A DNA stretch of 64,000 bases. Source: Nitrospira japonica. Its GTDB lineage: Bacteria; Nitrospirota; Nitrospiria; Nitrospirales; Nitrospiraceae. Position numbers and translations under genes: made by a program. Below are positions 4,122 to 17,901 of this stretch, one piece after another (position 1 is the first letter of the stretch; every line of letters starts with the position of its first letter). The stretch spans positions 746,876-810,875 of the forward strand of contig NZ_LT828648.1 in NCBI RefSeq assembly GCF_900169565.1. The letters are read 5' to 3'. The notes beneath the pieces were generated by a model, which was not told where the DNA came from, did not search any database, and saw nothing but the letters and a program-made list of their open reading frames with translations.

Positions 4122-7100
4122 CTAGCGCATCACGGAAGACACAGGACCGATCCGAGGCGGAGTCTCGGCGTCGGCCTGCTTCACCCCCGGGCGAACGCCC
4201 GAAAGGGCCTTGATGCGTTGGTCGCCAGCCGGGAGCACACGCAGATAGCCCCATTGTCCTGACTGCGAATAGGGCAACCGCTGATTGCTCCACACATAAT
4301 CGCCCGGCATCCGGAATGGGCCTCCGGCGCTGGGGAGGAAGGCATCCAGGGTTTCAGACCCGGAGAACTCCACCACGCTGATCATGTCGGCTCCGCGCAT
4401 GAAGGGCTCGATCGGCCACTCATGGCGTTCGACGCTGAACATGCCGTTCTGCTCGTTGCTCGCCCCGAACACGTGGATCCGCACGGAATCTCCCGCGTGG
4501 GCCTCGATGATCGGGGTCGCGGGGTCTTCGGGTTTGTCCACCACGCAAGGCTGGAAGACCTTGCCCAGGCTGCACCCGGTGTCCTGGCGGAACTTATAGG
4601 GTTCCGCGCGGTAGTTGACGGCGGTCAGGCCCGCGGTGTTCTGCACGTAGGGCATGAAGCTCGTCCCGATGATGTTGTCCTCGTCCTGGAAGAACAGGGC
4701 GACGTCGCGGTAGTTGACGCGATTCTCATACCCCTGAATGGTCCGGTCGACGATGACGTCGGCCACCCAGCTGTTCTTGGTCGAGATATCCAGACCGGTC
4801 TTGGGATCCCGATACTGGGCTCCCCTCGGACCGATCACGACCGCGCCATAGAGCCCGTTCCGCGGATGAAGCATCACGTTGCCCCAATCCCACACCAGCG
4901 AAGCGGTTTCTCCCAGGAACGGATCCGCATAATAGGTGTACGTGCGGCTCTCTCCCGGCGCCACCGTCTGCTCGCCAGGATTGTTGCCGACGTTCGCCCC
5001 GAGCGAATCCTTGGGGTCGAAGGCCAATCCGATGGCGGAGAACGAAGCGCGTCCTTCCTTCATCTTGTTGGTCAGCTTGATCTTGAGACAGTCACCCACG
5101 TTGCCGCGCAACGTCAGCGGCATCGGCTGCACGCCGCCGCTTACCTTGGCGACTTCCTCTTCCAGCGCGTAGATCTTCGCGTTCGGATTCACCATTTGGA
5201 TCGTCCGCTCGAAGTCGACTTCGATCGCATCAGGCGCCTTCGGATTCAGCTTCATCGAGGGATAATCCATCGCCACGACATTGAAGCTCTTCACCGGGGC
5301 GTCCGCCGGACAGATGGGGAGCGGCTGCGGAATGTTGTTCCTGCGGCTGTAGCCGGCAGGCAGCTTCTGCAGATCTGCCGCTTCCTTGTCCAGCACCCGC
5401 ATGATGCCCCACGCACCTTCCGAGAACTTCGAGGTGCGACCGTTGAAGTGGATGTAGTCTCCCGGTTGGAGCCGCGGTCCGCCGGCCTGCGGCACCACGA
5501 GATCGTAGCGCTCCGCAATGCCGATGTGGATCGAGTTCTTCCGGTTCGCATCGCCGGCATAACGTTCGGTCAGATAGGTATGGCCGGACAGCGTCCATAC
5601 CATCGTTTCGTTCGCCATGGTCTGAAGCAGCCGGAACACGACCGTGTCGCCCAGATATGCCCGCACCATCGGCGTGTACGGATCGCCGTGGACGGCGCTG
5701 CTGAACAGCTTGGACGAGTCCGGATTTGCTACCAGGCGGCTGGACACCGGCTCCGCCTTGAAATTCAACCCTCCGCCCGTCGTATGCGTTCCGCCGTTGA
5801 GGAACGGCATCGGCGTCATCGGGATCTTTTCCGGCATCGGGAACGACACGGTCTTGCCGGCTTCGAGGGCCACCTCGATGGGCTGCCCGGGAGGATTGCC
5901 GGCCGTGACGATGTTCACCGTATGCGGCACGGTGTCATTCAACTGCACGATCAACTCGCGGAAGCTGCCGTTGACTCCGTAACCCACCGGCTCGATGGTC
6001 CGGATGTCGGCCAACGGTCCGCTCCGGATCGGCTTGCCCGTCTTCGGATCATGGTAGGTCGAACCCACCGGTTCGATGACGATCGTCCCGAATCCCCCGT
6101 GCGGCCAGGTCACCCGACCCAACGCGTGGTCGTGCCAGAAGACCGTTCCCACGTCGGAATCCACCCAGAAGCGCTGACGGACGAATTCGACCGTCACGAT
6201 ATCGTTCACCGGATGATCGTTCTTCAAGGGCCTGTACAACGTGATCTGGTTCCCCTTGATGGATTTCACCCGTCCGATTTCGTTGCCTCCGACATTGTCC
6301 GCACCGATCAGCAGCTCCGCGTTCGTGTGGTACTGCGCGGCGTTCTTGAGCGTGATCACCCGCTCGCCTTTCTTGGCGGCCTTGGTGAACGTCGTGTTCA
6401 TCGGCAGCGGGAGGCCTTTGTTGACTTTTTTCTGCAGCATCGTGAACGGACGCACCGACTGCTCATACGAGAAGCCGGTGATCACGCCGTCCGAGGACTG
6501 GTTGTCGAACTGAAGGAAATGCCAATGCGTGTTGATCTTCGACGAATGGAAATTGATGTGGTCGTCGTCCTCCCACTCACTGGTCAGCATCCAATCGATA
6601 CAGTCGTAAATATTCGCCCGCACGACGAGCGGATACTTGATGGCGCTCTTCCGGACCTGGGCCTCTTCCTCGTGCAGCACGTAGATCAGGCCGTCCTTGT
6701 CTTCGATCGCCGGCGTATCGCCCTGCTTGTCGGCCAGGGTCATCGGCGTTTGGATGAAATGCACGTTGTACTTCTTGGAGCCCGCGTTCTCCGGGCACAT
6801 GCTCCAGCGCCCGTTCTCTCCCGGCTTCGCCGGATAAGAACTGGGCAATCCGTCGTCATCGAGGTGGATCATGTCCAACCAGGGGGACGGATTGTGGTTC
6901 TGCGAGAACGGCACGCGCCGGCCGAAGTGCGGCTTCAGGTGAGGCCACGCGACTTTACCGGTCGCGCTCTCGAACAGAATCGGCACGCGCTTTCCGGGAG
7001 TGGCGGACTTATACCGCGGATTCTCCACGGTATTTTCACGCTCGGTCATCGCCCGCTCGCCCTGCCAGGCCCAATCCAGCACGCTGGCATCGTACGAGCT

Positions 7101-8960
7101 GGTCTGCGCCCGCTCGTCGGTCTTGTGGCCCGGCTGCCCCTGGGGAGGCAACTGCATGGTGACCCAATCCTTCACGTTGACGACGGCAGGCGAAGCCTTC
7201 CAATCCGTCTTCCCATTCTTGACGATGGTGAACTCCTTGCCGAACCAGTCCACCGTGCGACCGACGAGCTGATCCGACGTCACGCCGGGCTGAATACGAC
7301 CCGTGCGGTCCGGGAGTTCCCGAAGGGCCGGCATCACGTCATTGTGGACTTCGCCCTGTTGCAGGGTGTTGTACACGCGCCAATACCCCCACATGCCGGC
7401 GATATAGTGGTGCGCGACGTGGCAGTGGAACAGAAAATCACCGGCCAGCTGCTGGCAGAGGCCCGATCCGCACTCCGTTTCCAGATCCATCGTCTCGGAG
7501 GGACCGATTACTTCCACGTCGACCCGGTCGGACTTGGTGCGGATCACGGGATACTTGACCGGGCCGTTTTTGGCGGCGTGCCACAAGGGCATTTCGTCGA
7601 TTGCGCGCGGGCTCCGCGGCCAGCGGATCGAACCGCCGTGCGGATGATGGGAGTGAAATACCTCCGATCCGCCGTGTACGAGGCGGAACTTCGCCGGATC
7701 TCCCAGATAGCTGCGCGGCACGGTGGTGGCTGGATCACCGAACGTATAGGCGCTGTAGGCCATGGATTCGTCTTCGAATCCGAAATATTCGTGCTGCGTC
7801 TGCATGTTGTCGACGCCGAACGGCTCGCTGCGATAGTTGAGTGCGCGGGCGACCGGCCGGTAGACGTCGGTCAACGGATCGCGCTGGGGGAGAAAATCGC
7901 CCTTCTTGTTCAGCGGTCTGAACGCTTCATCGCCGACTTCGTGATACATCAGGACGAATTCACGGAAATCCGGTCCCGCACCGTTCTTGATGATCGCCTG
8001 CCATCCGCTGGTCATCGGGGTCGGAGTGCCGCTGCCGATCGGATCCAGGTACTCGGATCCCTTCGGTTCGACCACGAACGTTCCGAACAAGCCCATCACC
8101 GTCAATTCGCGATCGTTGCTGTAGGAGTGGAACTGCCGTCCGCCTTCCTGCTGCGTCGGCGGAATGTACCATTCGAATTCGACGGTCTTGCCCTGCGGAG
8201 CCACGCTGTCGGGGTTGGTCGTGGTTGCGGGCTGTCCGGTCGACGCGACGATCATGCTGGAGCCGTGGATGTTGAGACTGACCTCCTCGCCGCCATCGAG
8301 CTGATTGCGCAGCGTCATCTTGACGCAGTCGCCCTGGTTGCCACGGATCACCAGCGGCTGAATCCACTGGCTCTGCAAGCCGTTCTTGACCGCGCCCGGG
8401 TCGTAACCTTCTTTTTCGCGGGCCGCGCGATTGGTGGTCTCCTCTTCCCGTACTTTGTCGATGTTCTCGGTGAGGACGTACATGTACCCGGGATAATAAT
8501 CGAGCCACATGTTGAGCGAAATCTCGACGTTGATCGCCGAAATATCATACTTCCTGACCGGGGCGGATGCGGGGCAGCGCCCGCCCGTCGCGGACACCGG
8601 CTCGGCACCGGAATCGGACATGAGGAGCACGTCCTGATTGCCCGCGCCGTATTGATGCATCATATTGACGTTGTTGAAATAGCCGCTGGTGCGCTGCGCC
8701 TCGGCGTCCCGCTCCATCTGCTCCATGACCCGATGATGCTGGCGCTCCATCATCGCCGCGCGGTCCGGCCGGCCTTCCATCGAATCCTCGACGATCGTCT
8801 GCCCCTTCAGCCGTTGAGTCCACGCGACGGGCGTCGCCGACTCGACCTCCTGATGGGCCTCGTGGGTGGATTCGGCCACCGCCTCGTTACCCATTAGCAT
8901 GAGGGTCACTGCACATAGAATTCTCGCCCACGAACGATCCTGCTTACCTCTCCTCTGCAT
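4122..8960 (-). CDS. Giant periplasmic multicopper oxidase with six cupredoxin-like domains in permuted order
   Basis: 1612 residues. The ATG at 8960 follows GAGAGGGG; an in-frame start at 8990 lacks a site. A Sec signal ends near NEAVAES. Three tandem two-domain units can be traced (about residues 130-530, 565-1190 and 1218-1580). Unit 1 domain 2 carries HSHHPHGG (HxxHxH, near 436) and HCHVAHHYIAGM (HCHxxxHxxxxM, near 512), i.e. type 1 copper and half of the trinuclear site. The two remaining HxH motifs, THWHF (near 812) and FWHDHALGR (near 942), lie in unit 2 domain 1. Unit 3 has lost its histidines. A complete oxidase site therefore forms only between domains 2 and 3. The substrate (metal, nitrite, phenolic) is unknown. 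It sits 61 bases downstream of nirK, probably in one operon. Confidence 0.9.
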   Translation of the reverse strand: MQRRGKQDRSWARILCAVTLMLMGNEAVAESTHEAHQEVESATPVAWTQRLKGQTIVEDSMEGRPDRAAMMERQHHRVMEQMERDAEAQRTSGYFNNVNMMHQYGAGNQDVLLMSDSGAEPVSATGGRCPASAPVRKYDISAINVEISLNMWLDYYPGYMYVLTENIDKVREEETTNRAAREKEGYDPGAVKNGLQSQWIQPLVIRGNQGDCVKMTLRNQLDGGEEVSLNIHGSSMIVASTGQPATTTNPDSVAPQGKTVEFEWYIPPTQQEGGRQFHSYSNDRELTVMGLFGTFVVEPKGSEYLDPIGSGTPTPMTSGWQAIIKNGAGPDFREFVLMYHEVGDEAFRPLNKKGDFLPQRDPLTDVYRPVARALNYRSEPFGVDNMQTQHEYFGFEDESMAYSAYTFGDPATTVPRSYLGDPAKFRLVHGGSEVFHSHHPHGGSIRWPRSPRAIDEMPLWHAAKNGPVKYPVIRTKSDRVDVEVIGPSETMDLETECGSGLCQQLAGDFLFHCHVAHHYIAGMWGYWRVYNTLQQGEVHNDVMPALRELPDRTGRIQPGVTSDQLVGRTVDWFGKEFTIVKNGKTDWKASPAVVNVKDWVTMQLPPQGQPGHKTDERAQTSSYDASVLDWAWQGERAMTERENTVENPRYKSATPGKRVPILFESATGKVAWPHLKPHFGRRVPFSQNHNPSPWLDMIHLDDDGLPSSYPAKPGENGRWSMCPENAGSKKYNVHFIQTPMTLADKQGDTPAIEDKDGLIYVLHEEEAQVRKSAIKYPLVVRANIYDCIDWMLTSEWEDDDHINFHSSKINTHWHFLQFDNQSSDGVITGFSYEQSVRPFTMLQKKVNKGLPLPMNTTFTKAAKKGERVITLKNAAQYHTNAELLIGADNVGGNEIGRVKSIKGNQITLYRPLKNDHPVNDIVTVEFVRQRFWVDSDVGTVFWHDHALGRVTWPHGGFGTIVIEPVGSTYHDPKTGKPIRSGPLADIRTIEPVGYGVNGSFRELIVQLNDTVPHTVNIVTAGNPPGQPIEVALEAGKTVSFPMPEKIPMTPMPFLNGGTHTTGGGLNFKAEPVSSRLVANPDSSKLFSSAVHGDPYTPMVRAYLGDTVVFRLLQTMANETMVWTLSGHTYLTERYAGDANRKNSIHIGIAERYDLVVPQAGGPRLQPGDYIHFNGRTSKFSEGAWGIMRVLDKEAADLQKLPAGYSRRNNIPQPLPICPADAPVKSFNVVAMDYPSMKLNPKAPDAIEVDFERTIQMVNPNAKIYALEEEVAKVSGGVQPMPLTLRGNVGDCLKIKLTNKMKEGRASFSAIGLAFDPKDSLGANVGNNPGEQTVAPGESRTYTYYADPFLGETASLVWDWGNVMLHPRNGLYGAVVIGPRGAQYRDPKTGLDISTKNSWVADVIVDRTIQGYENRVNYRDVALFFQDEDNIIGTSFMPYVQNTAGLTAVNYRAEPYKFRQDTGCSLGKVFQPCVVDKPEDPATPIIEAHAGDSVRIHVFGASNEQNGMFSVERHEWPIEPFMRGADMISVVEFSGSETLDAFLPSAGGPFRMPGDYVWSNQRLPYSQSGQWGYLRVLPAGDQRIKALSGVRPGVKQADAETPPRIGPVSSVMR

Positions 8961-9021
8961 TATGGTTCCCCTCTCAAGAGTGTGGATCACACATCTGGCC
9001 CAAATGGCCTACAATTCCGGT

Positions 9022-9996
9022 CTACCGGTCGGCTGCGCCCGTCCAGGCCACGTCGCGGTCCTGTGGCGGCGGCAGAGCCTCGAAGCTGGTCTTTGATGTC
9101 TCCTCGTTGGACACATGAATGAGGCCCAGCGCCCCGGTTAACGCGTCCTGCAAGGAATGCGTTACCATCGGGTACATGCCCTCTTCAGGAAGCACGAGAT
9201 CGAAGGTCGCACCTCCGCCCGGCGGCAGCGTGTACGTCTGGATGCCATGCTCGATATTCTTGGGATTGCCGCTGGCATACACGCGATCGAACACGGCGCC
9301 GATGACGTGAAACGCCGAAAAATGATTCGGCCCGGCATTGACGACGTGGAGGCGGATCAACTCACCCGGCTTCGCCCGGAGCGGCTCGTCGAGGTATTTG
9401 TTCGCACGGCCGTTGAACACGACGAGCTTCGGCTTGCCAGCCATCATCGTATCGACGTCGTGCGGGGTCGGATAAATCTCACTCTGGACGATGACATACT
9501 CACGGTCCGCTTTCACGACAGGCGTTCGCGGTTCCACGATCACCGCGCCGAACATCCCGTTGGCGATGTGCTGGATCATCGGATCGGTGCCGCAGTGGTA
9601 GTAGAACTCTCCGGGATAATCGGCCTTCCATCGAAAGCTGGACTCCGATCCGGTGGGCACCCCTTGAAAATGCAGGTTCCACGGGGTCTTGGCCGCGTGG
9701 AAATCGATCGAGTGGACGCGGTCGGCCTCGTTCTTCAGCGTAAAATCGACGACGTCGCCCTCCTTGATCCGGATCACGGGACCGGGGAACGTATCGTTGA
9801 AGGTCCAGGCTTCACGCTGGTCGTCTTTGGCCACTTCGATCTTCGTGACGCTCGCGCGCAATTGGACGGCGACCTCACCCGCGTCACTCGTCTGCGCGCA
9901 GAACAGCCCGACCGCCGACCACGCCAGGAGAGACGTGACGGAGGAGAGGCCCTGCCCTTGCCGAAATGACGGGCCGCGGAACCTTGTGTCGCTCAT
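9022..9996 (-). CDS. nirK: Copper-containing nitrite reductase, periplasmic
   Basis: 324 residues with a signal peptide up to about residue 39. Two cupredoxin domains. All expected ligands are present: His95, Asp98 and His100 in VHSIDFHAA; the type 1 site His134-Cys135, His143 and Met148 in HCGTDPMIQHIANGM; His230 in AFHVIG; and His280 in VTHSLQDA. The enzyme reduces nitrite to nitric oxide. It is found in many Nitrospira, where its physiological role is unsettled. The ATG has AGGGAG five bases upstream. A sigma-54-type promoter lies about 85 bases upstream, the gene for an enhancer-binding regulator lies next to that, and the multicopper oxidase follows downstream. The protein is slightly short for the family, but no active-site residue is missing. 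Confidence 0.95.
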   Translation of the reverse strand: MSDTRFRGPSFRQGQGLSSVTSLLAWSAVGLFCAQTSDAGEVAVQLRASVTKIEVAKDDQREAWTFNDTFPGPVIRIKEGDVVDFTLKNEADRVHSIDFHAAKTPWNLHFQGVPTGSESSFRWKADYPGEFYYHCGTDPMIQHIANGMFGAVIVEPRTPVVKADREYVIVQSEIYPTPHDVDTMMAGKPKLVVFNGRANKYLDEPLRAKPGELIRLHVVNAGPNHFSAFHVIGAVFDRVYASGNPKNIEHGIQTYTLPPGGGATFDLVLPEEGMYPMVTHSLQDALTGALGLIHVSNEETSKTSFEALPPPQDRDVAWTGAADR

Positions 9997-10190: not shown

Positions 10191-10226
10191 CCGCGATATT
10201 TAGCAGTTGCTCGTGATATGTCGTGA
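10191..10226 (-). promoter_or_regulatory. TCGYGA repeat cluster upstream of nirK (candidate enhancer sites)
   Basis: CCGCGA at 10191, TCGTGA at 10211 and TCGTGA at 10221 are spaced 20 and 10 bases apart, i.e. on one face of the helix. They lie 95-145 bases upstream of the nirK -24/-12 promoter, where sigma-54 activators usually bind. The 16-base unit at 10211-10226 shares 12 consecutive bases (GATATGTCGTGA) with the cluster upstream of nxrA. Confidence 0.5.
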
Positions 10227-10237
10227 ATATTACCGGG

Positions 10238-11764
10238 TCAGACTACCGGAAAATTCACGGGCCGCTTGAGCCCGAGTTTCTTCATACGGCTTCGCAACGT
10301 ACTGGGATTCATCCCGAGTTGAGCCGCGGCCCCGTAGGTTCCGTAGATCCGCCAATGTACCGATTCCAGCACGTGCTGAATATGGCGACGCTCGACGTCG
10401 ATCAGGTTGGACGTCGATTCGGCCACTGCGTTTCCACCCACCAGGGCCTGAGGTTCGATGGTCAGGACCGGCGACTGGGCCAGGATGACGGCCCGCTCGA
10501 TCACGTTCTGCAGTTCGCGCACGTTGCCCGGCCAGGAGTAGTTGGTGAGCCGCGACATGGATTCCTCGCTCAGCTCCAGCATCGGGCGTTTCAATTTCGC
10601 CCGATAAGCTTCAAGAAAATGCCGGGCCAGGAGCGGGATGTCTTCACGCCGTTCCCGCAGCGGAGGCAAAGCGATGGGAAATACGTGAAGGCGATAATAC
10701 AGGTCCTGTCGGAACCGTCCTTCGTTGACGGCCGACACGAGATCGGAATTCGTCGCGGCGACGATGCGGACGTCGACGGGAATGGGGCGCGTGCCGCCGA
10801 CGCGGTCCACCAGCCCGTCCTCCAGGACACGGAGCAGCTTCGCCTGGGCTTCAAGCGGCATCTCGCCGATTTCGTCCAGGAACAGCGTGCCGCCGTTGGC
10901 CAATTCAAAACGGCCCGCACGCCGTTGGTCCGCCCCGGTGAATGCGCCGCGCTCGTGGCCGAACAACTCGCTTTCGACCAATCCCATCGGCAGCGCCGCG
11001 CAATTGACGCGGACGAACGGTTTATCGCGACGGGCGCTCAACTCATGGATGGCCCGCGCCATCAGTTCTTTTCCGGTGCCGGTTTCACCGGTGACCAACA
11101 CGGTGGTGCCGGTCGGTCCGACGGCCTCCGCCTGCGTCAAGGCGGTCCGGAACGCCGCGCTCAGCCCCACCATTGCGCCGAAGTTGTGCGTGAGCTTCAA
11201 CTCCTCAACCAGATATTCATTTTCGCGTGCCAGCTGATGCCGCAACCGATCGATCTGTTCGTAGGCTTGAACGTGACCGATCGCATAGGCGATTTGCGTC
11301 GCCACGAGTTGAAGGAATTCCAGATCGGTCGGGTCGGGATCTCCGCACTCCACGCTGCCGATGTTCAATGTTCCGATGCAGTCGCTGCCCACCATGAGCG
11401 GGGAGTTGATCATACGGCCCAATCCCTCGCGCACGTAGTATTCGTCCTCGAGAAACAGCCGTTGCCGACGGAGATCCGGTCGGACGTGAATCGTCCGATT
11501 CTCATAGACCCACCCCACGGCGCTGCCGACCTTGGGAATGACCGCGTCACGCGGCAGCTCCCGGTGCGGCAGGGTCGTTTCCACCGCGTAAAACCTGAAT
11601 GAATCGCTGTCTGAGTTGTAGAGGGTGACGCCGGCGCGCTCCCATGGAAGGACTTTTCGGATTTGCTCGGTGATCGCGCGCCAGAGGCTGTCGGTATCGC
11701 GCTGGGAGTTCAGAACATTGGTGACGGCCAGTAAGGCGCGATAGCTTTCATCGTCGTTCCGCAT
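10238..11764 (-). CDS. Sigma-54-dependent transcriptional regulator (GAF - AAA+ - Fis HTH)
   Basis: 508 residues. An N-terminal GAF sensor domain (about 8-168) is followed by a short coiled linker. The AAA+ domain has Walker A GETGTGKE (226-233), the sigma-54 contact loop GAFTGA (273-278), Walker B TLFLDE (293-298), and FRQDLYYRL (351-359). A Fis-type helix-turn-helix lies near residues 460-500 ([18 protein letters not shown]). This FhlA/NorR-like layout activates sigma-54 RNA polymerase in response to a ligand bound by GAF; which ligand is unknown. It is encoded between the nxr operon and nirK, both on the same strand. The ATG follows GGAGGAACGAGG. Given the neighbouring sigma-54 promoters it is the likely activator of nirK and perhaps of nxr. 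Confidence 0.93.
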
Positions 11765-11947: not shown

Positions 11948-12592
11948 TCACGTTTCGACACGACGGGGAACGGCAAAGGCGGCCGACACGACCTTCATGA
12001 GGAGGAGCCCGACCAGTACGGCGCCGGCCTGAGCGGCGATAAGTTGCCACATCGCCTGCTTCCAATACCCGTCTTGGGCCTCATCCGTCTCTCGGAATTC
12101 ACGCTCGATCTTGGAGTCCAAATCGTCGAAGACATTGGCAATCGTTTTCGCCAGCGCCACTCCGTCACCGCCACGAACGTAGTTGAGGACTTCTTGTTCC
12201 TGGCCCGACCCGATCTTGAACGTCAGCTGGCGCTTCGTCTCGATCAACTCGGCGAGCCGTCGTTTGAGCACCTGGACGCTTCCCTTAAGCGACGGAGTCT
12301 TCTCCGTCAATTCGGTCAACCGGTCCAGCGCCGGGGGAATTTCCGCCTCGGCCGCCACCACCGGCACCAGGAACACGCTCTGGCGCATTAATGCGTACCC
12401 GCGAAACCCGCTGTCGATATCGGTGGCCAATCGCCGAAGCTGCAGGACTTGCACCGTGATGGCGTTGCGGAGTTCCTGCGCGTCGGACACTTCGTGCCAC
12501 TGCTTGAGAATGTAGATTTGCTCCGCTCCAAAAAACAGAAGGAGAAGGACGCCCGTGCACAGGTATGCCCATACTTTGTTCCGTTGTCGCAC
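11948..12592 (-). CDS. Orphan CHASE3-domain membrane protein downstream of nxrB
   Basis: 214 residues from a GTG at 12592, which has GGAAGGA 8 bases upstream. The longest open frame would start at 12706, but it would read into the hairpin behind nxrB. An N-terminal membrane helix (VWAYLCTGVLLLLFFG) is followed by an extracytoplasmic all-helical domain with the CHASE3 hallmark DIDSGFRGYALMRQ, and then by a second membrane helix (LIAAQAGAVLVGLLL) and a short tail. CHASE3 normally senses an unknown signal for histidine kinases, chemoreceptors or cyclases, but no output domain follows here. It is encoded directly after nxrB. It could be a partner that reports periplasmic state, or a truncated receptor. 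Confidence 0.75.
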   Translation of the reverse strand: MRQRNKVWAYLCTGVLLLLFFGAEQIYILKQWHEVSDAQELRNAITVQVLQLRRLATDIDSGFRGYALMRQSVFLVPVVAAEAEIPPALDRLTELTEKTPSLKGSVQVLKRRLAELIETKRQLTFKIGSGQEQEVLNYVRGGDGVALAKTIANVFDDLDSKIEREFRETDEAQDGYWKQAMWQLIAAQAGAVLVGLLLMKVVSAAFAVPRRVET

Positions 12593-12684
12593 CGCTCGCT
12601 TCCTTCCAATTTCGACGCTCCGCACCGGCTCGAGGCCGTTCGAGCCGATGCCGAGAATGATGAGGGAACAGCCTGCAGATACAC

Positions 12685-12719
12685 GAAGGGCAGAGTATTG
12701 AATCAATACTCTGCCCTTC
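12685..12719 (-). terminator. Long perfect hairpin downstream of nxrB
   Basis: A 17-base arm and its exact reverse complement are separated by one base (GAAGGGCAGAGTATTGA and TCAATACTCTGCCCTTC). It lies 48 bases beyond the nxrB stop codon. There is no U-tract on the minus side, so it may act as a 3'-end stabiliser or attenuator between nxrB and the CHASE3 gene rather than as a full terminator. Confidence 0.5.
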
Positions 12720-12731
12720 CGCGCTCGACCG

Positions 12732-12767: not shown

Positions 12768-14057
12768 CTACAGCCAGTTCACCCGTTCCGCGGGTCTGAT
12801 GTAGATCGGCTCTTCGACCTGAATGCGCGCCACTTCCTTCCCCGACTTGTTGAAGCCCAGCACGGTATCGTTGTACATCTCGAACCGCTTCCCGTGAATC
12901 TGGGTCTCAAACACCTTCGGGCCCGGAATGACGTCATACCGGAAGACGATCTGCTGACTGGCGCGCCACAGCTGCAGCACCGCCAACAACTCCCGGCTCG
13001 GCACCAGATACTTCTCAATGGCATTGTCCACGCCCGGACCGAACATCTGCCGGGCATAGCCCCGCGGGCTGTGCCGCGGCGGAATGTAATAGCCATTGGG
13101 CTCCGTGCCCCACTGCGGATACAGAGGCAACGCCACCTGCTCCACCCGAATGGTGTAGTACAGGGGGTGCCACCGGTCCTCCGCCCACAGGCCGTCCTCG
13201 CCGATGCGCACCAGGCTCTGCATGCGGATCTTCCCCACGCACGCCGCCATACAGCGCGTTTCCATCGGCTCGCCGCCCGTCAGCGGATCCTTCCCCTCGA
13301 TCCGCGGATAGCACGCAATGCACTTCTCCGACACCCGGGTCGTCCCCCGGTACATCGGCTTCTTGAACGGGCACTGCTCCACGCACTTCTTGTACCCGCG
13401 GCAGCGGTTCTGGTCGATCAACACAATGCCGTCTTCCGGCCGTTTATAGATCGCCTTGCGCGGGCAGGCGGCCAAACAGCCCGGATACGTGCAGTGGTTG
13501 CAGATCCGTTGCAGGTAGAAGAAGAACGTCTCATGCTCCGGCAGCGAGCTGCCGGACAGCCGCCACGGTTCATCGCGCGAGAACCCCGACCGATCGATCC
13601 CCTCCACCAAGGAGCGCATCGACGTGGCCGTGTCCTCGTAGATGTTCACGAAGCGCCATTCCTGGTCCGTCGGAATGTACCCGATCGCCGCCTGGCCCAC
13701 CTTGGCCCCCGCGTCGAAAATGGTCATCCCTTCGAACACCCCGTAGGGCGCATGGTGCTTGCGGCCCACCCGCACGTTCCACACCTGCCCCCCCGGGTTC
13801 ACTTGCTCGATCAACTGCGTGATCTTCACGTCGTAGAACTGGGGATACCCGCCGTACGGCTTCGTCTCCACGTTGTTCCACCACATGTATTCCTGGCCCT
13901 TCGAAAACAGCCAGGTCGACTTGTCCGCCATCGAACACGTCTGACACGCCAAACACCGGTTGATATTGAACACAAAGGCAAACTGCCACTTCGGATGCCG
14001 CTCCTCATACGGATACAGCATCTTCCGTCCCAGTTGCCAGTTATAGACTTCTGGCAT
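12768..14057 (-). CDS. nxrB: Nitrite oxidoreductase beta subunit (iron-sulfur electron transfer)
   Basis: 429 residues. The four cysteine clusters of the DMSO-reductase type II beta subunit are visible: CLACQTC (35-41), CNHCTYPGCLAACP, CRGYKKCVEQCP, and CIAC with the later CMAACVGK. These bind one [3Fe-4S] and three [4Fe-4S] clusters that carry electrons from the molybdenum site of NxrA towards the membrane chain. There is no signal peptide, so export probably occurs with the Tat-targeted alpha subunit. It is encoded 78 bases after nxrA with GAAGGAGGATTCACA just before the ATG. This is the standard functional marker gene of Nitrospira. Two hairpins follow the stop codon. Confidence 0.97.
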   Translation of the reverse strand: MPEVYNWQLGRKMLYPYEERHPKWQFAFVFNINRCLACQTCSMADKSTWLFSKGQEYMWWNNVETKPYGGYPQFYDVKITQLIEQVNPGGQVWNVRVGRKHHAPYGVFEGMTIFDAGAKVGQAAIGYIPTDQEWRFVNIYEDTATSMRSLVEGIDRSGFSRDEPWRLSGSSLPEHETFFFYLQRICNHCTYPGCLAACPRKAIYKRPEDGIVLIDQNRCRGYKKCVEQCPFKKPMYRGTTRVSEKCIACYPRIEGKDPLTGGEPMETRCMAACVGKIRMQSLVRIGEDGLWAEDRWHPLYYTIRVEQVALPLYPQWGTEPNGYYIPPRHSPRGYARQMFGPGVDNAIEKYLVPSRELLAVLQLWRASQQIVFRYDVIPGPKVFETQIHGKRFEMYNDTVLGFNKSGKEVARIQVEEPIYIRPAERVNWL

Positions 14058-14135: not shown

Positions 14136-17100
14136 TTACACCTTGATCTTGATGTGCTCACCTTTGAGCCACTTGATCATGAACTCGTTCTCCTGTCCCG
14201 GGGTAAAGCCGGTGCGCACCGGTTCCCACGGGCCGCGCGCTCCGATGCCGCCGTCTTCCGCCTTGGTGATGCGGATCAAGCATTCCTTCGGCACCGTGTT
14301 GACCGCGTGGTGGTCGATTTCGAACCCCCACTTCCATTTCAACCCGTTGGCGTGTTTGCCCGGGAGCGAGTCGGTCTGGTGCATCGGCATCAGCCACGAC
14401 CGGGTAAAGGACTGTTGGGCCCCGTACCGGAAGTTGGACTGATAGCCGGTGTCCACCGCGATGGCTCGGCCGTCCGGCCGGGTCTCGTGGCCCTTCACCG
14501 ACTTCGCCGTCGACACGTACGGGGCGTGCTTCGCCATCGTCACGTGGTACGGATAGGCGGGGTTGTACTTCGCCCGGATCATCAGACGGGCGACTTTATA
14601 GTAGGGGTCACTCGGCTTCCAGCCACGATAGGGCCGGTCCACCGGGTTGCCGTCCACATAGACGTAGTCGCCGTCGTTGATGCCGCGGTCTTTGGCCGCC
14701 TGCGGGTTGATGTGCAACTGGTGCTCGCCGACGCCCGGCGTCCGTTTGTCCATGCGGTACGGATCGCCGAAGTTCGACTCGTAAATCTGCACCCAGTCGT
14801 TCACCGACCACTGGCTGTGCACCCGGTGCCGGGTCTTGGGCGTCACGCAGTAGAACTGGTAGCCCTTCTCCCACAACGGGTTGGCGTGTTGCTTGATTTC
14901 CCCCCACGGCAGCTTGATGTTGCGCACCGTCTTGTCGTCATGGTGCTGCGCCGTGATCGGAATGCCGTAGTCGTCCGGTCGGACGTACGGGTTGGTCGTG
15001 AAGATGGCGTTCGGCAGATACGGGGTCGCCTCCGGGCCTTCCCGGTGAACGATGAAGTTTTCCCCGTACTCGATCGCCTCGGGCTCCACCCGATACGTTT
15101 CCAACCGCCCGGATCGCGTCCACTGCGGCTTGCTCTCGTTGACCTCTTCCCAGAGCGGATGGCGCGGATAGGTTCGCACCATGACCATCCAGCCCTTTTC
15201 CGACTTCAGCATCACGTCGGCGCTATAGCCGTACAACGTGCTCGACGCATCGAACACGCGCTGCGCATAGACGTCGACGCGATTTAGGTAGACGAAGTGG
15301 AAGACGTCCCGTATCTTCGTATCACCGGTCATCTCCGACAACTTGGCCGCGACCCCGGCAAAGGTATCCAGGTCGTTGCGGGTGTCGTACAACGGCCGGA
15401 TGCCGCCCTTCCAGACCTGAATCCAGGGATTCGACACCGTCGCCGTCATCTCCGGATAGGTGAATTCCATCCAGGAGTTGCAGGCAAACGCGATGTCGGC
15501 GTGGTTGACGTCCGAGGTCATCTCGATGTCTTGCGTGATGATCATCTCGATGTTCGGATCCACGTTGCGCACCATGTCATAGTGGTGCTTGGAATTGTTG
15601 AGGACGTTCACGTTGACGACCCACCGCACCTTGCTCGGGCTCGGCATGTGCGTCTTACCCGTGAACACCTTGCGTCCGTACTTCGGCGTATTGACGATCA
15701 GGGCGGTGTCGCCGTGGTTCCAATAGCCGGGCTCCTCGCCGTAGTAGTAGGTCTTGTAATGGATTTCCTTCCCGTGTGCGTTCGGATCCAGATTCGTGTG
15801 CCACGGGTCTTCCGACAGATGGACTCCCGCGCCGGCGCCTGACCACGGCGCCGCGTTCCAGATGCCCACCTTGTAGTTGCCGGACCAAGTATGACAACCC
15901 GTGCCGAACTTGCCGACGTTGCCGGTCAAAATCATAACCAGCGCCGCCGCCCGTCCCATCGACGTCATGTGGAAATAGTGACACACGCCTTCGCCGTTGT
16001 GAATCGCGGCGGGCTTGACCGTGCCACAGTCCCGCGCCCAGCGGACGATCAGGTCCTTGGGCGACCGGTTGATCTGATGCACCGTGTCCAGATCGTAATC
16101 CTGGAAGTGCACCATGTAGAGCTGATAAATCGGCGCGACGTCGACTTCGCGGCCGTTGAGCATCTTCACCCGGTAGGTCCCGGTGAGCGCCGCATCGACG
16201 CCCGTTTCCTGGTAGTGCACGCCCACTTGTTCACGATGGAGCGGCACCGCCTGCTTCTTGTTGAGGTCCCAGACCATCATGCCGCCAAGCCGCTGGATGT
16301 ATTCCGGCTTGAGGCCCTGTATGCGGCCCGAATACGAGTGGCTGAAATCGGGCAATGCATAATCCTTGACGACGTCCCGCGGATCCAAATACTGCAGGGT
16401 ATCGGTCCGCACGAGAAGCGGCATGTCGGTGAACTGCTTCAGAAAATCGATGTCGTGCAGATTCTCCTCGACGATGATCCGGCTGGCCCCGAGGAACAGG
16501 GCGCCGTCAGACTCCGGACGCACCGGAATCCAATAATCGGCGCGGTAGGCCGTCGGATTGTATTCCGGCGTGATGACCACGATGCGGCCGCCACGCTCGA
16601 TGGACTCAAGCTTCCAGTGGGCTTCCGGCATCTTGTTTTCGGTGAAGTTCTTGCCCCAGCTCGTATTGAGCTTGGAGAAGCGCATATCGGAGAGGTCAGT
16701 GTCGCAATTCTGCGTCCCGTTCCACCACGGCTGGGACGGGTCCTGGTCGCCGTGCCAGGTATAGTTGTTCCAATACCGTCCGCCCTGGGCCTGGTCCGGA
16801 CCGACTTTTCTGATCCAGGCGTCGACCAGTGGCAGAACGCTGTTATTAAAACGGGTATTGCCGTGCTTGCCCAGCAACCCGAGAATCGGCATACCGGCGC
16901 GATGCTTGAAGCACCGGACTCCGGCGCCCTTCATCATCTCGATCATTTCCGGCGCATAGCCCTGCTCGCGCAGACGCCGCGCGCCCGCTTCGCCGCTGTA
17001 GCGGGTCCCGATGACGATCAGGCCCTTGCCCGCATAGGTGAAGGCCGTATCCCAGGACACCCGAATCATATCGTCGAGGAAGCGGCTGTCGAACTTGTAC

Positions 17101-17573
17101 TTCCGCTTCGTCTCCGGCGTGAGCTCCGGGGAGCCGTCGTCCATCCACTGCTTCCAGCCCTTCCGCATCAACGGTCCCTTCAACCGATACGGCCCGTAGA
17201 CGCGGCGATGGAACGTGAATCCCTTCAAGCACATGCGCGGATTGTGCGCGAACGTCCCGCGGTTGCCGTAGAGATCTTCGTAGGTTTGATGGTCATAGTT
17301 CTGCTCCACCCGCATGACGACGCCGTTGCGGACGAACGCCCGAATGCGGCATGCATGGGTATCGTTCGGAGAGCAGACCCAGGTAAATGACGAATCGTAC
17401 CGGTACTGATCGTGATACACCCGCTCCCAGGAGCGGTCCGGATAATCGCCCAGCGGGTTCCCGACTTCGATGACCGGCTGTAAGGCCGTCAACGCCAGGA
17501 CCTTGTCCGCTACCGCCACCGCGGCCACGGTGCCCGCCGAGATCTTTAAGAATTGTCGACGTGACCAAACCAT
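14136..17573 (-). CDS. nxrA: Nitrite oxidoreductase alpha subunit (molybdenum catalytic subunit, Tat-exported)
   Basis: 1145 residues. I start at the ATG at 17573, preceded by AAGGAGG at 9 bases. The in-frame start at 17750 would run across the promoter region. The N-terminus has a perfect twin-arginine motif, SRRQFLK, then a hydrophobic stretch, giving a periplasmic enzyme. The type II DMSO reductase signature follows: CSPNDTHAC (67-75) and RMCLKG (Cys115) for the [4Fe-4S] cluster, RRVYGPYRLK, and the molybdenum-site region YWNNYTWHGDQDP...GTQNCDTDLSD. The enzyme oxidises nitrite to nitrate, the energy-yielding step of nitrite oxidation. It pairs with nxrB. No haem gamma subunit is encoded next to it. 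Leader and upstream sites are described separately. Confidence 0.97.
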   Translation of the reverse strand: MVWSRRQFLKISAGTVAAVAVADKVLALTALQPVIEVGNPLGDYPDRSWERVYHDQYRYDSSFTWVCSPNDTHACRIRAFVRNGVVMRVEQNYDHQTYEDLYGNRGTFAHNPRMCLKGFTFHRRVYGPYRLKGPLMRKGWKQWMDDGSPELTPETKRKYKFDSRFLDDMIRVSWDTAFTYAGKGLIVIGTRYSGEAGARRLREQGYAPEMIEMMKGAGVRCFKHRAGMPILGLLGKHGNTRFNNSVLPLVDAWIRKVGPDQAQGGRYWNNYTWHGDQDPSQPWWNGTQNCDTDLSDMRFSKLNTSWGKNFTENKMPEAHWKLESIERGGRIVVITPEYNPTAYRADYWIPVRPESDGALFLGASRIIVEENLHDIDFLKQFTDMPLLVRTDTLQYLDPRDVVKDYALPDFSHSYSGRIQGLKPEYIQRLGGMMVWDLNKKQAVPLHREQVGVHYQETGVDAALTGTYRVKMLNGREVDVAPIYQLYMVHFQDYDLDTVHQINRSPKDLIVRWARDCGTVKPAAIHNGEGVCHYFHMTSMGRAAALVMILTGNVGKFGTGCHTWSGNYKVGIWNAAPWSGAGAGVHLSEDPWHTNLDPNAHGKEIHYKTYYYGEEPGYWNHGDTALIVNTPKYGRKVFTGKTHMPSPSKVRWVVNVNVLNNSKHHYDMVRNVDPNIEMIITQDIEMTSDVNHADIAFACNSWMEFTYPEMTATVSNPWIQVWKGGIRPLYDTRNDLDTFAGVAAKLSEMTGDTKIRDVFHFVYLNRVDVYAQRVFDASSTLYGYSADVMLKSEKGWMVMVRTYPRHPLWEEVNESKPQWTRSGRLETYRVEPEAIEYGENFIVHREGPEATPYLPNAIFTTNPYVRPDDYGIPITAQHHDDKTVRNIKLPWGEIKQHANPLWEKGYQFYCVTPKTRHRVHSQWSVNDWVQIYESNFGDPYRMDKRTPGVGEHQLHINPQAAKDRGINDGDYVYVDGNPVDRPYRGWKPSDPYYKVARLMIRAKYNPAYPYHVTMAKHAPYVSTAKSVKGHETRPDGRAIAVDTGYQSNFRYGAQQSFTRSWLMPMHQTDSLPGKHANGLKWKWGFEIDHHAVNTVPKECLIRITKAEDGGIGARGPWEPVRTGFTPGQENEFMIKWLKGEHIKIKV

Positions 17574-17830: not shown

Positions 17831-17901
17831 GGGCGATATGTCGTGATTTCAGTCGCGACTATCGCGATGATGCGCGGTCGCGAAATATGGCGAGGTCGCG
17901 A
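17831..17901 (-). promoter_or_regulatory. TCGYGA repeat array upstream of nxrA (candidate enhancer)
   Basis: Seven six-base elements occur in 71 bases: GGGCGA 17831, TCGTGA 17841, TCGCGA 17853, 17862 and 17878, TGGCGA 17888, TCGCGA 17896. The pairs 17831/17841 and 17878/17888 have the same 10-base spacing as the pair upstream of nirK. The position relative to the putative sigma-54 promoter fits an activator-binding enhancer. Confidence 0.5.

Follow-up and report, generated by a model that had tools for sequence, protein, structure and literature searches.

The window, a stretch of 64,000 bp (G000:C1:746876-810875), belongs to a genome of 4.08 Mb, which is a single contig and carries three copies of nxrA. 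On the minus strand, the order of genes is nxrA, nxrB, a CHASE3-only membrane protein, a sigma-54 activator (EBP), nirK and a multicopper oxidase. The genes and regulatory features are as follows:

17831-17901, minus strand: putative enhancer (UAS) array of nxrA (spacing of its module identical in three genomes)
17735-17720, minus strand: predicted sigma-54 -24/-12 promoter of nxrAB, TGGTATGGGAGTTGCC (sequence scan)
14139-17573, minus strand: nxrA, nitrite oxidoreductase alpha subunit with TAT signal, molybdopterin oxidoreductase (Pfam; 87-95% identity to Nitrospira nxrA copies)
12768-14057, minus strand: nxrB, iron-sulfur beta subunit (Pfam)
11948-12706, minus strand: CHASE3-only membrane protein, conserved in position (Pfam; orthologues)
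10238-11764, minus strand: sigma-54 activator, GAF - AAA+ (GAFTGA) - Fis-type HTH, proposed binder of both arrays (Pfam, alignment, AlphaFold model, tree)
10191-10226, minus strand: putative enhancer (UAS) array of nirK, TCACGA-N4-TCACGA-N14-TCGCGG
10096-10081, minus strand: predicted sigma-54 -24/-12 promoter of nirK, CGGCACATCTGTTGCT (similar element in orthologous loci L044-L047)
9022-9996, minus strand: nirK-type copper nitrite reductase, first gene after the second promoter (Pfam; TIGR02376 match under the cut-off)
4122-8990, minus strand: large multicopper oxidase of 1622 aa, immediately behind nirK

Because only 31 bp separate nirK from the multicopper oxidase, the two genes probably form one operon. 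The close nirK subtype (at least 80%) is confined to this genome (G000) and to G001, G002 and G054. The CHASE3 protein between nxrB and the activator is devoid of an output domain; it occupies the same place in relatives and evolves fast (36-73% identity). Just past nxrB, a perfect long inverted repeat (GAAGGGCAGAGTATTGA / TCAATACTCTGCCCTTC, 12685-12721) overlaps the listed start of the CHASE3 ORF and is a possible terminator or attenuator that parts nxrAB from the regulator.

The activator contains an AAA+ sigma-54 interaction domain (PF00158, E 1e-71), whose GAFTGA and Walker motifs are intact and conserved in the alignment, and a C-terminal Fis-type HTH (PF02954 at 456-497). Three C-terminal helices (454-468, 479-483 and 487-497) were delimited from an AlphaFold model with a pTM of 0.47, which was used for helix boundaries only. 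The recognition helix spans 487-497 and carries the motif N486-P487-S488-T489 (NPST). For signal sensing by the GAF domain, the alignment shows C129 and H93 to be invariant, which makes them candidate residues. Assignments of the protein as NorR (376 bits vs an NCBIfam cut-off of 476, NF003451), NifA (408 vs 529, TIGR01817) or FhlA (395 vs 830, NF011958) were rejected. A contig search with the activator returned chiefly distant EBPs, close Nitrospira being almost absent. The genome encodes RpoN once (PF04552, 191.7 bits, G000:C1:2233013-2233495).

Upstream of nxrA, the initial annotation had described seven TCGYGA-like elements in 71 bases. We recovered all seven, namely five exact TCGYGA/TCRCGA hexamers (at 17841, 17853, 17862, 17878 and 17896) and two degenerate ones on the minus strand (TCGCCC at 17836-17831 and TCGCCA at 17893-17888). 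Relative to the start of the sigma-54 element, the half-sites lie at -166, -158, -148, -132, -123, -111 and -101, and the core module reads TCGCGA-N3-TCGCGA-N6-TCACGA-N4-TCGC. Chance occurrence was assessed by dinucleotide shuffling of the whole window (200 times) and by shuffling of the nxrA intergenic region (5000 times). Four hexamers per 71 bases arose once in the former and five, the observed number of exact ones, never; the latter reached a maximum of three. Moreover, three TCGCGA inside 78 bp occur at just three places in 4.08 Mb, one being the nxrA array and the other two lying within long ORFs devoid of a sigma-54 site. Taken singly, TCGYGA is not enriched in the window (124 observed vs 144 expected), and the special feature of the array is its clustering and not the abundance of the hexamer. 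The array is thus non-random. No Rfam feature was found in the array region; in a sigma-70 scan, the region was no richer in promoter-like sites than shuffled sequence, and on the strand of nxrA and nirK there was none ahead of either gene.

The three phased elements that had been noted upstream of nirK are likewise present. In forward reading, they are CCGCGA at 10191 and TCGTGA at 10211 and 10221, spaced by 20 and 10 bp and located at -100, -120 and -130, respectively, from the sigma-54 element. A 12-mer, GATATGTCGTGA, is indeed identical in both regions (10215-10226 and 17835-17846), but such a match arises in ~2% of shuffles and is weak as evidence. As to the motif itself, the array is real, but its true unit is not the single TCGYGA; we refine it to a pair, YCGCGA-N4-TCGCGR, with half-sites every 10 bp. 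The strict dyad YCGCGR-N4-YCGCGR occurs at background level in the own genome (16 vs 14 in the control), where the other N4 dyads sit in long ORFs. Thus, the dyad alone is not diagnostic there, and what is diagnostic is clustering together with a sigma-54 element.

Both -24/-12 elements, as predicted by sequence only, are placed downstream of their arrays, with the half-sites ~100-166 bp upstream of them. The nxrA element is a fair, imperfect match at 9/12 scored positions, and lone 9/12 matches are common. A whole-genome search with YGGYAYNNNNGTTGC returned 19 sigma-54-like sites, the nxrAB and nirK promoters included. Over 260 bp of upstream sequence, at least four half-sites were counted for these two alone and 0-1 for each of the remaining 17. 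The array therefore accompanies a sigma-54-like promoter at only these two places of the 4.08 Mb genome. Judging from the GAFTGA and Walker motifs, the Fis HTH, the -24/-12 promoters, the upstream sites and RpoN, the locus would qualify as a sigma-54 EBP system with a UAS.

We then turned to orthologous loci. G002 and G054 have the same gene order, nxrA-nxrB-CHASE3-EBP-nirK-oxidase; G005 has it minus nirK, and G001 has the part from CHASE3 onward. In G000, G001, G002, G005 and G054, the nirK/oxidase promoter combines a sigma-54 element with TCGCGA-type half-sites 10 bp apart at -90 to -141 (nirK of G001: -120/-110/-100/-90; nirK of G054: -119/-109/-99/-89; oxidase promoter of G005: -130/-120/-110/-100). 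The oxidase directly follows the array-bearing promoter, without nirK, in G005 and G058. Upstream of nxrA, the module -132/-123/-111/-101 is common to G000, G005 and G002, with the consensus TCGCGR-N3-TCGYGA-N6-TCRCG-N5-TCGC at equal distance to the sigma-54 element, which reads TGGTATGRGAGTTGCC in G005 and G002. Measured from the promoter, the half-sites of the nirK, oxidase and nxrA arrays fall on matching helical positions. Across these three genomes, 18 of 24 half-site columns upstream of nxrA are invariant, vs 51 of 171 elsewhere (p 3e-5).

The motif search in relatives that the initial annotation had proposed thus found the array kept at nirK/oxidase (G001, G002, G005, G054) and at nxrA (G002, G005), but not at nxrA of G054. 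In that N. moscoviensis-like genome, the array stands at nirK only, and the adjacent nxrA is preceded by another EBP. Orthologues in G012, G062, G090, G091 and G122 have no array beside the activator; some of them have lost nirK, and some contigs end. The proposed linking of nitrite oxidation and nitrite reduction genes accordingly holds for two genomes, G000 and G002, but not for G005, where nirK is gone and the array serves the nxrA and multicopper oxidase promoters, nor for G054. Since nxrA of G054 is without an array, the link is a feature of this clade and not of all Nitrospira. Scanning 175 genomes of the family for three phased YCGCGR half-sites gave nine places, vs two for the reversed pattern used as control. 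At six of the nine, a sigma-54 element lies at a distance of 99-141 bp, and five of the six correspond to promoters reported here (EBP-linked, nirK or nxrA). In G043, a TCGCGA array of three phased half-sites (L329, G043:C1:1425469) has a sigma-54 element 133 bp downstream, stands away from the EBP genes examined and is a candidate for an additional regulon member there.

To relate operator to regulator, we collected the downstream regions of related EBPs (50-100% identity; 104 distinct regions) and sorted them solely by the residues with which the recognition helix begins. Regions of NPST EBPs contain TCGCGA-class N4 pairs in 25 of 33 cases and the CCACGA dyad in none. APST EBPs show the reverse: CCACG-N6-CGTGG (CCACGA-N4-TCGTGG) is present in 22/22 and TCGCGA pairs in 0/22. 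Neither operator class was found for NPET EBPs (0/27), and PPST EBPs have mixed operators. Shuffled sequences gave 0.1/33 for TCGCGA pairs and 0.005/22 for the CCACGA dyad. Operator class and helix class are associated with Fisher p values of 5e-9 to 8e-16, which overstate independence as the sequences are related by descent. Operator and DNA-reading residues thus change together, which ties the motif to the regulator.

In the NPST set, half-sites are separated by gaps of 4 (45 pairs), 14 (27) and 24 (22), with every other gap at 0-3; the three gaps correspond to exact repeats of 10, 20 and 30 bp. From the N4 pairs of this set to the sigma-54 element downstream of them, the distance is 99-164 bp, and such pairs are present in 24/26 regions with a called sigma-54 promoter vs 1/7 without (p 2e-4). 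The NPST class falls in two separate clades of the EBP tree. In G053, the EBP is followed by a zinc-ribbon-like ORF and nxrA, with phased TCGCGA arrays at both promoters, and in G153, also NPST, the EBP directly precedes nxrA. The APST dyad often stands before another nxrA copy; at eleven nxrA loci checked, it is followed, still ahead of nxrA, by a TGGCAYG-like sigma-54 element at 139-145 bp, with a second dyad in some cases at 107-111 bp.

Apart from two exceptions, the 27 NPET EBPs (L060, L061, L067, L069 and others) are without a downstream sigma-54 element, and their targets lie elsewhere. Downstream of the PPST EBPs L076 and L077 (G115 and G107), there are CCGCGA-N4 sites, a sigma-54 element and genes of efflux type (by eye EmrB/TolC/EmrA-like). 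As for the other two nxrA copies of the genome, at G000:C1:880635-884063 (L002, L324) and G000:C1:2097333-2100764 (L003, L323), neither TCGCGA pairs nor CCACGA dyads occur over 700 bp of upstream sequence. Both have a receiver-type EBP-like gene nearby (473 and 489 aa, identified by eye), and nxrA copy 3 additionally has a histidine-kinase-like ORF in its vicinity and TGGCAATCTCTTTGCT, a sigma-54-like element, at -152. The nxrAB copies thus seem to be wired each to its own regulator.

In all likelihood, the repeat array is the UAS of the sigma-54 activator (GAF-AAA+-Fis) whose gene lies at 10238-11764, between nxrAB and nirK. The initial annotation had proposed this protein as the most simple single regulator, and it appears the best one, given the placement of the promoters, the retention of the array in orthologues, the operator class that follows the helix and the specificity for two places. 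From the computed array, phasing, promoters, conservation, operator-helix co-variation and genome-wide specificity, we infer binding, looping, activation and a signal in the following manner. An activator dimer would set its two recognition helices in successive major grooves of YCGCGA-N4-TCGCGR, whose half-site centres are 10 bp apart. Several half-sites on one helical face could then gather the activator ~100-166 bp upstream, and looping of the DNA would let the AAA+ ring remodel RNA polymerase-sigma-54 at both -24/-12 promoters, that of nxrAB and that of nirK-multicopper oxidase. In this way, a signal sensed by the GAF domain, for which nitrite, NO or redox state are guesses, may raise one of the three nxrAB operons together with the nirK operon; nxrA and nirK are probably switched by one signal.

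Alternatively, the array might chiefly regulate nirK-oxidase, the nxrA array of this clade being a recent and functionally minor duplication of sites. The arrayless nxrA near the orthologous EBP in G054 and the use of other EBPs by nxrA copies elsewhere fit such a history. We nevertheless consider it unlikely, as the four-half-site module with its 3-6-4 spacers was kept at nxrA in three species while the flanks diverged, and the independent nxrA promoters of G053 and G153 also bear TCGCGA-class sites. A different transcription factor (an activator, repressor or NO/nitrite sensor) could also bind the array at the same two promoters while the EBP binds elsewhere. TCGCGA is self-complementary, like the sites of many dimeric repressors, and the orthologues L057 and L312 have a sigma-54 promoter without a clean N4 pair. 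Such a factor is quite improbable, however, when the operator class shifts with the recognition helix of the EBP and the array, in many genomes, adjoins EBP genes from two clades and keeps a distance to sigma-54 elements that is typical of EBPs. A functionless cluster of a GC-rich hexamer, arisen by chance or through simple sequence expansion, would agree with the lack of enrichment of single TCGYGA in the window and with the p of ~0.02 for the shared 12-mer. The shuffle tests and the conserved spacing oppose it, and the cross-genome gap spectrum (45/27/22 at 4/14/24 vs 0-3 elsewhere) makes it very unlikely, to the point that we give it next to no weight.

The UAS reading can be extended to a specificity code that insulates near-identical nxrAB copies, in which NPST EBPs would read TCGCGA-type half-sites and APST EBPs CCACGA-N4-TCGTGG, with an own signal per NXR copy, and in which the activator would occupy TCGCGA arrays as a continuous 10-bp-phased row of protomers and not as separate dimers. 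We regard this combined proposal as tentative and, on balance, somewhat doubtful.

Sigma-54 regulators adjoining nxrAB, their expression and the differential use of nxrAB copies are already reported in earlier studies (PMC6606698, PMC7522533). According to one of them, the orthologous regulator in N. moscoviensis shows low transcription during nitrite oxidation, which counts against the activator reading (PMC6606698). In the open-access literature searched, no operator, promoter or target assignment for nxrAB-adjacent sigma-54 regulators was found; the operator and promoter detail is likely, although not certainly, novel. For nirK and one nxrAB copy, our analysis predicts the promoters, the enhancer sites and the cognate regulator, and it assigns a second operator class to another nxrAB copy in many genomes. 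It bears on the choice among near-identical NXR copies and the retention of nirK in Nitrospira (PMC6606698), and makes the question of NXR copy choice directly testable in organisms without genetics.

Among known systems, NITMOv2_4539 and its homologues beside nxrAB (PMC6606698, PMC7522533) share the neighbourhood (nxrA-nxrB-CHASE3-EBP-nirK in G054) and most likely the orthologous group with the present activator. EBP operators of Desulfovibrio (PMC4641369) resemble the arrays in lying upstream of sigma-54 promoters co-localised with EBP genes, with three half-sites for DVU2956, but belong to another phylum and other motifs, TCGCGA being absent from the text of that paper. Looping and AAA+ activation of RNA polymerase-sigma-54 are known for EBPs (PMC7175178). 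FhlA/NifA/NorR-type EBPs share the GAF - AAA+ (GAFTGA) - Fis HTH order, the -24/-12 promoter and multiple upstream sites ~100-170 bp away, whereas here the operator is YCGCGA-N4-TCGCGR in 10-bp phase and the targets are genes of nitrite oxidation and reduction. In kind, this is an ordinary EBP-UAS-sigma-54 system; what is new are its targets and the two-operator code.
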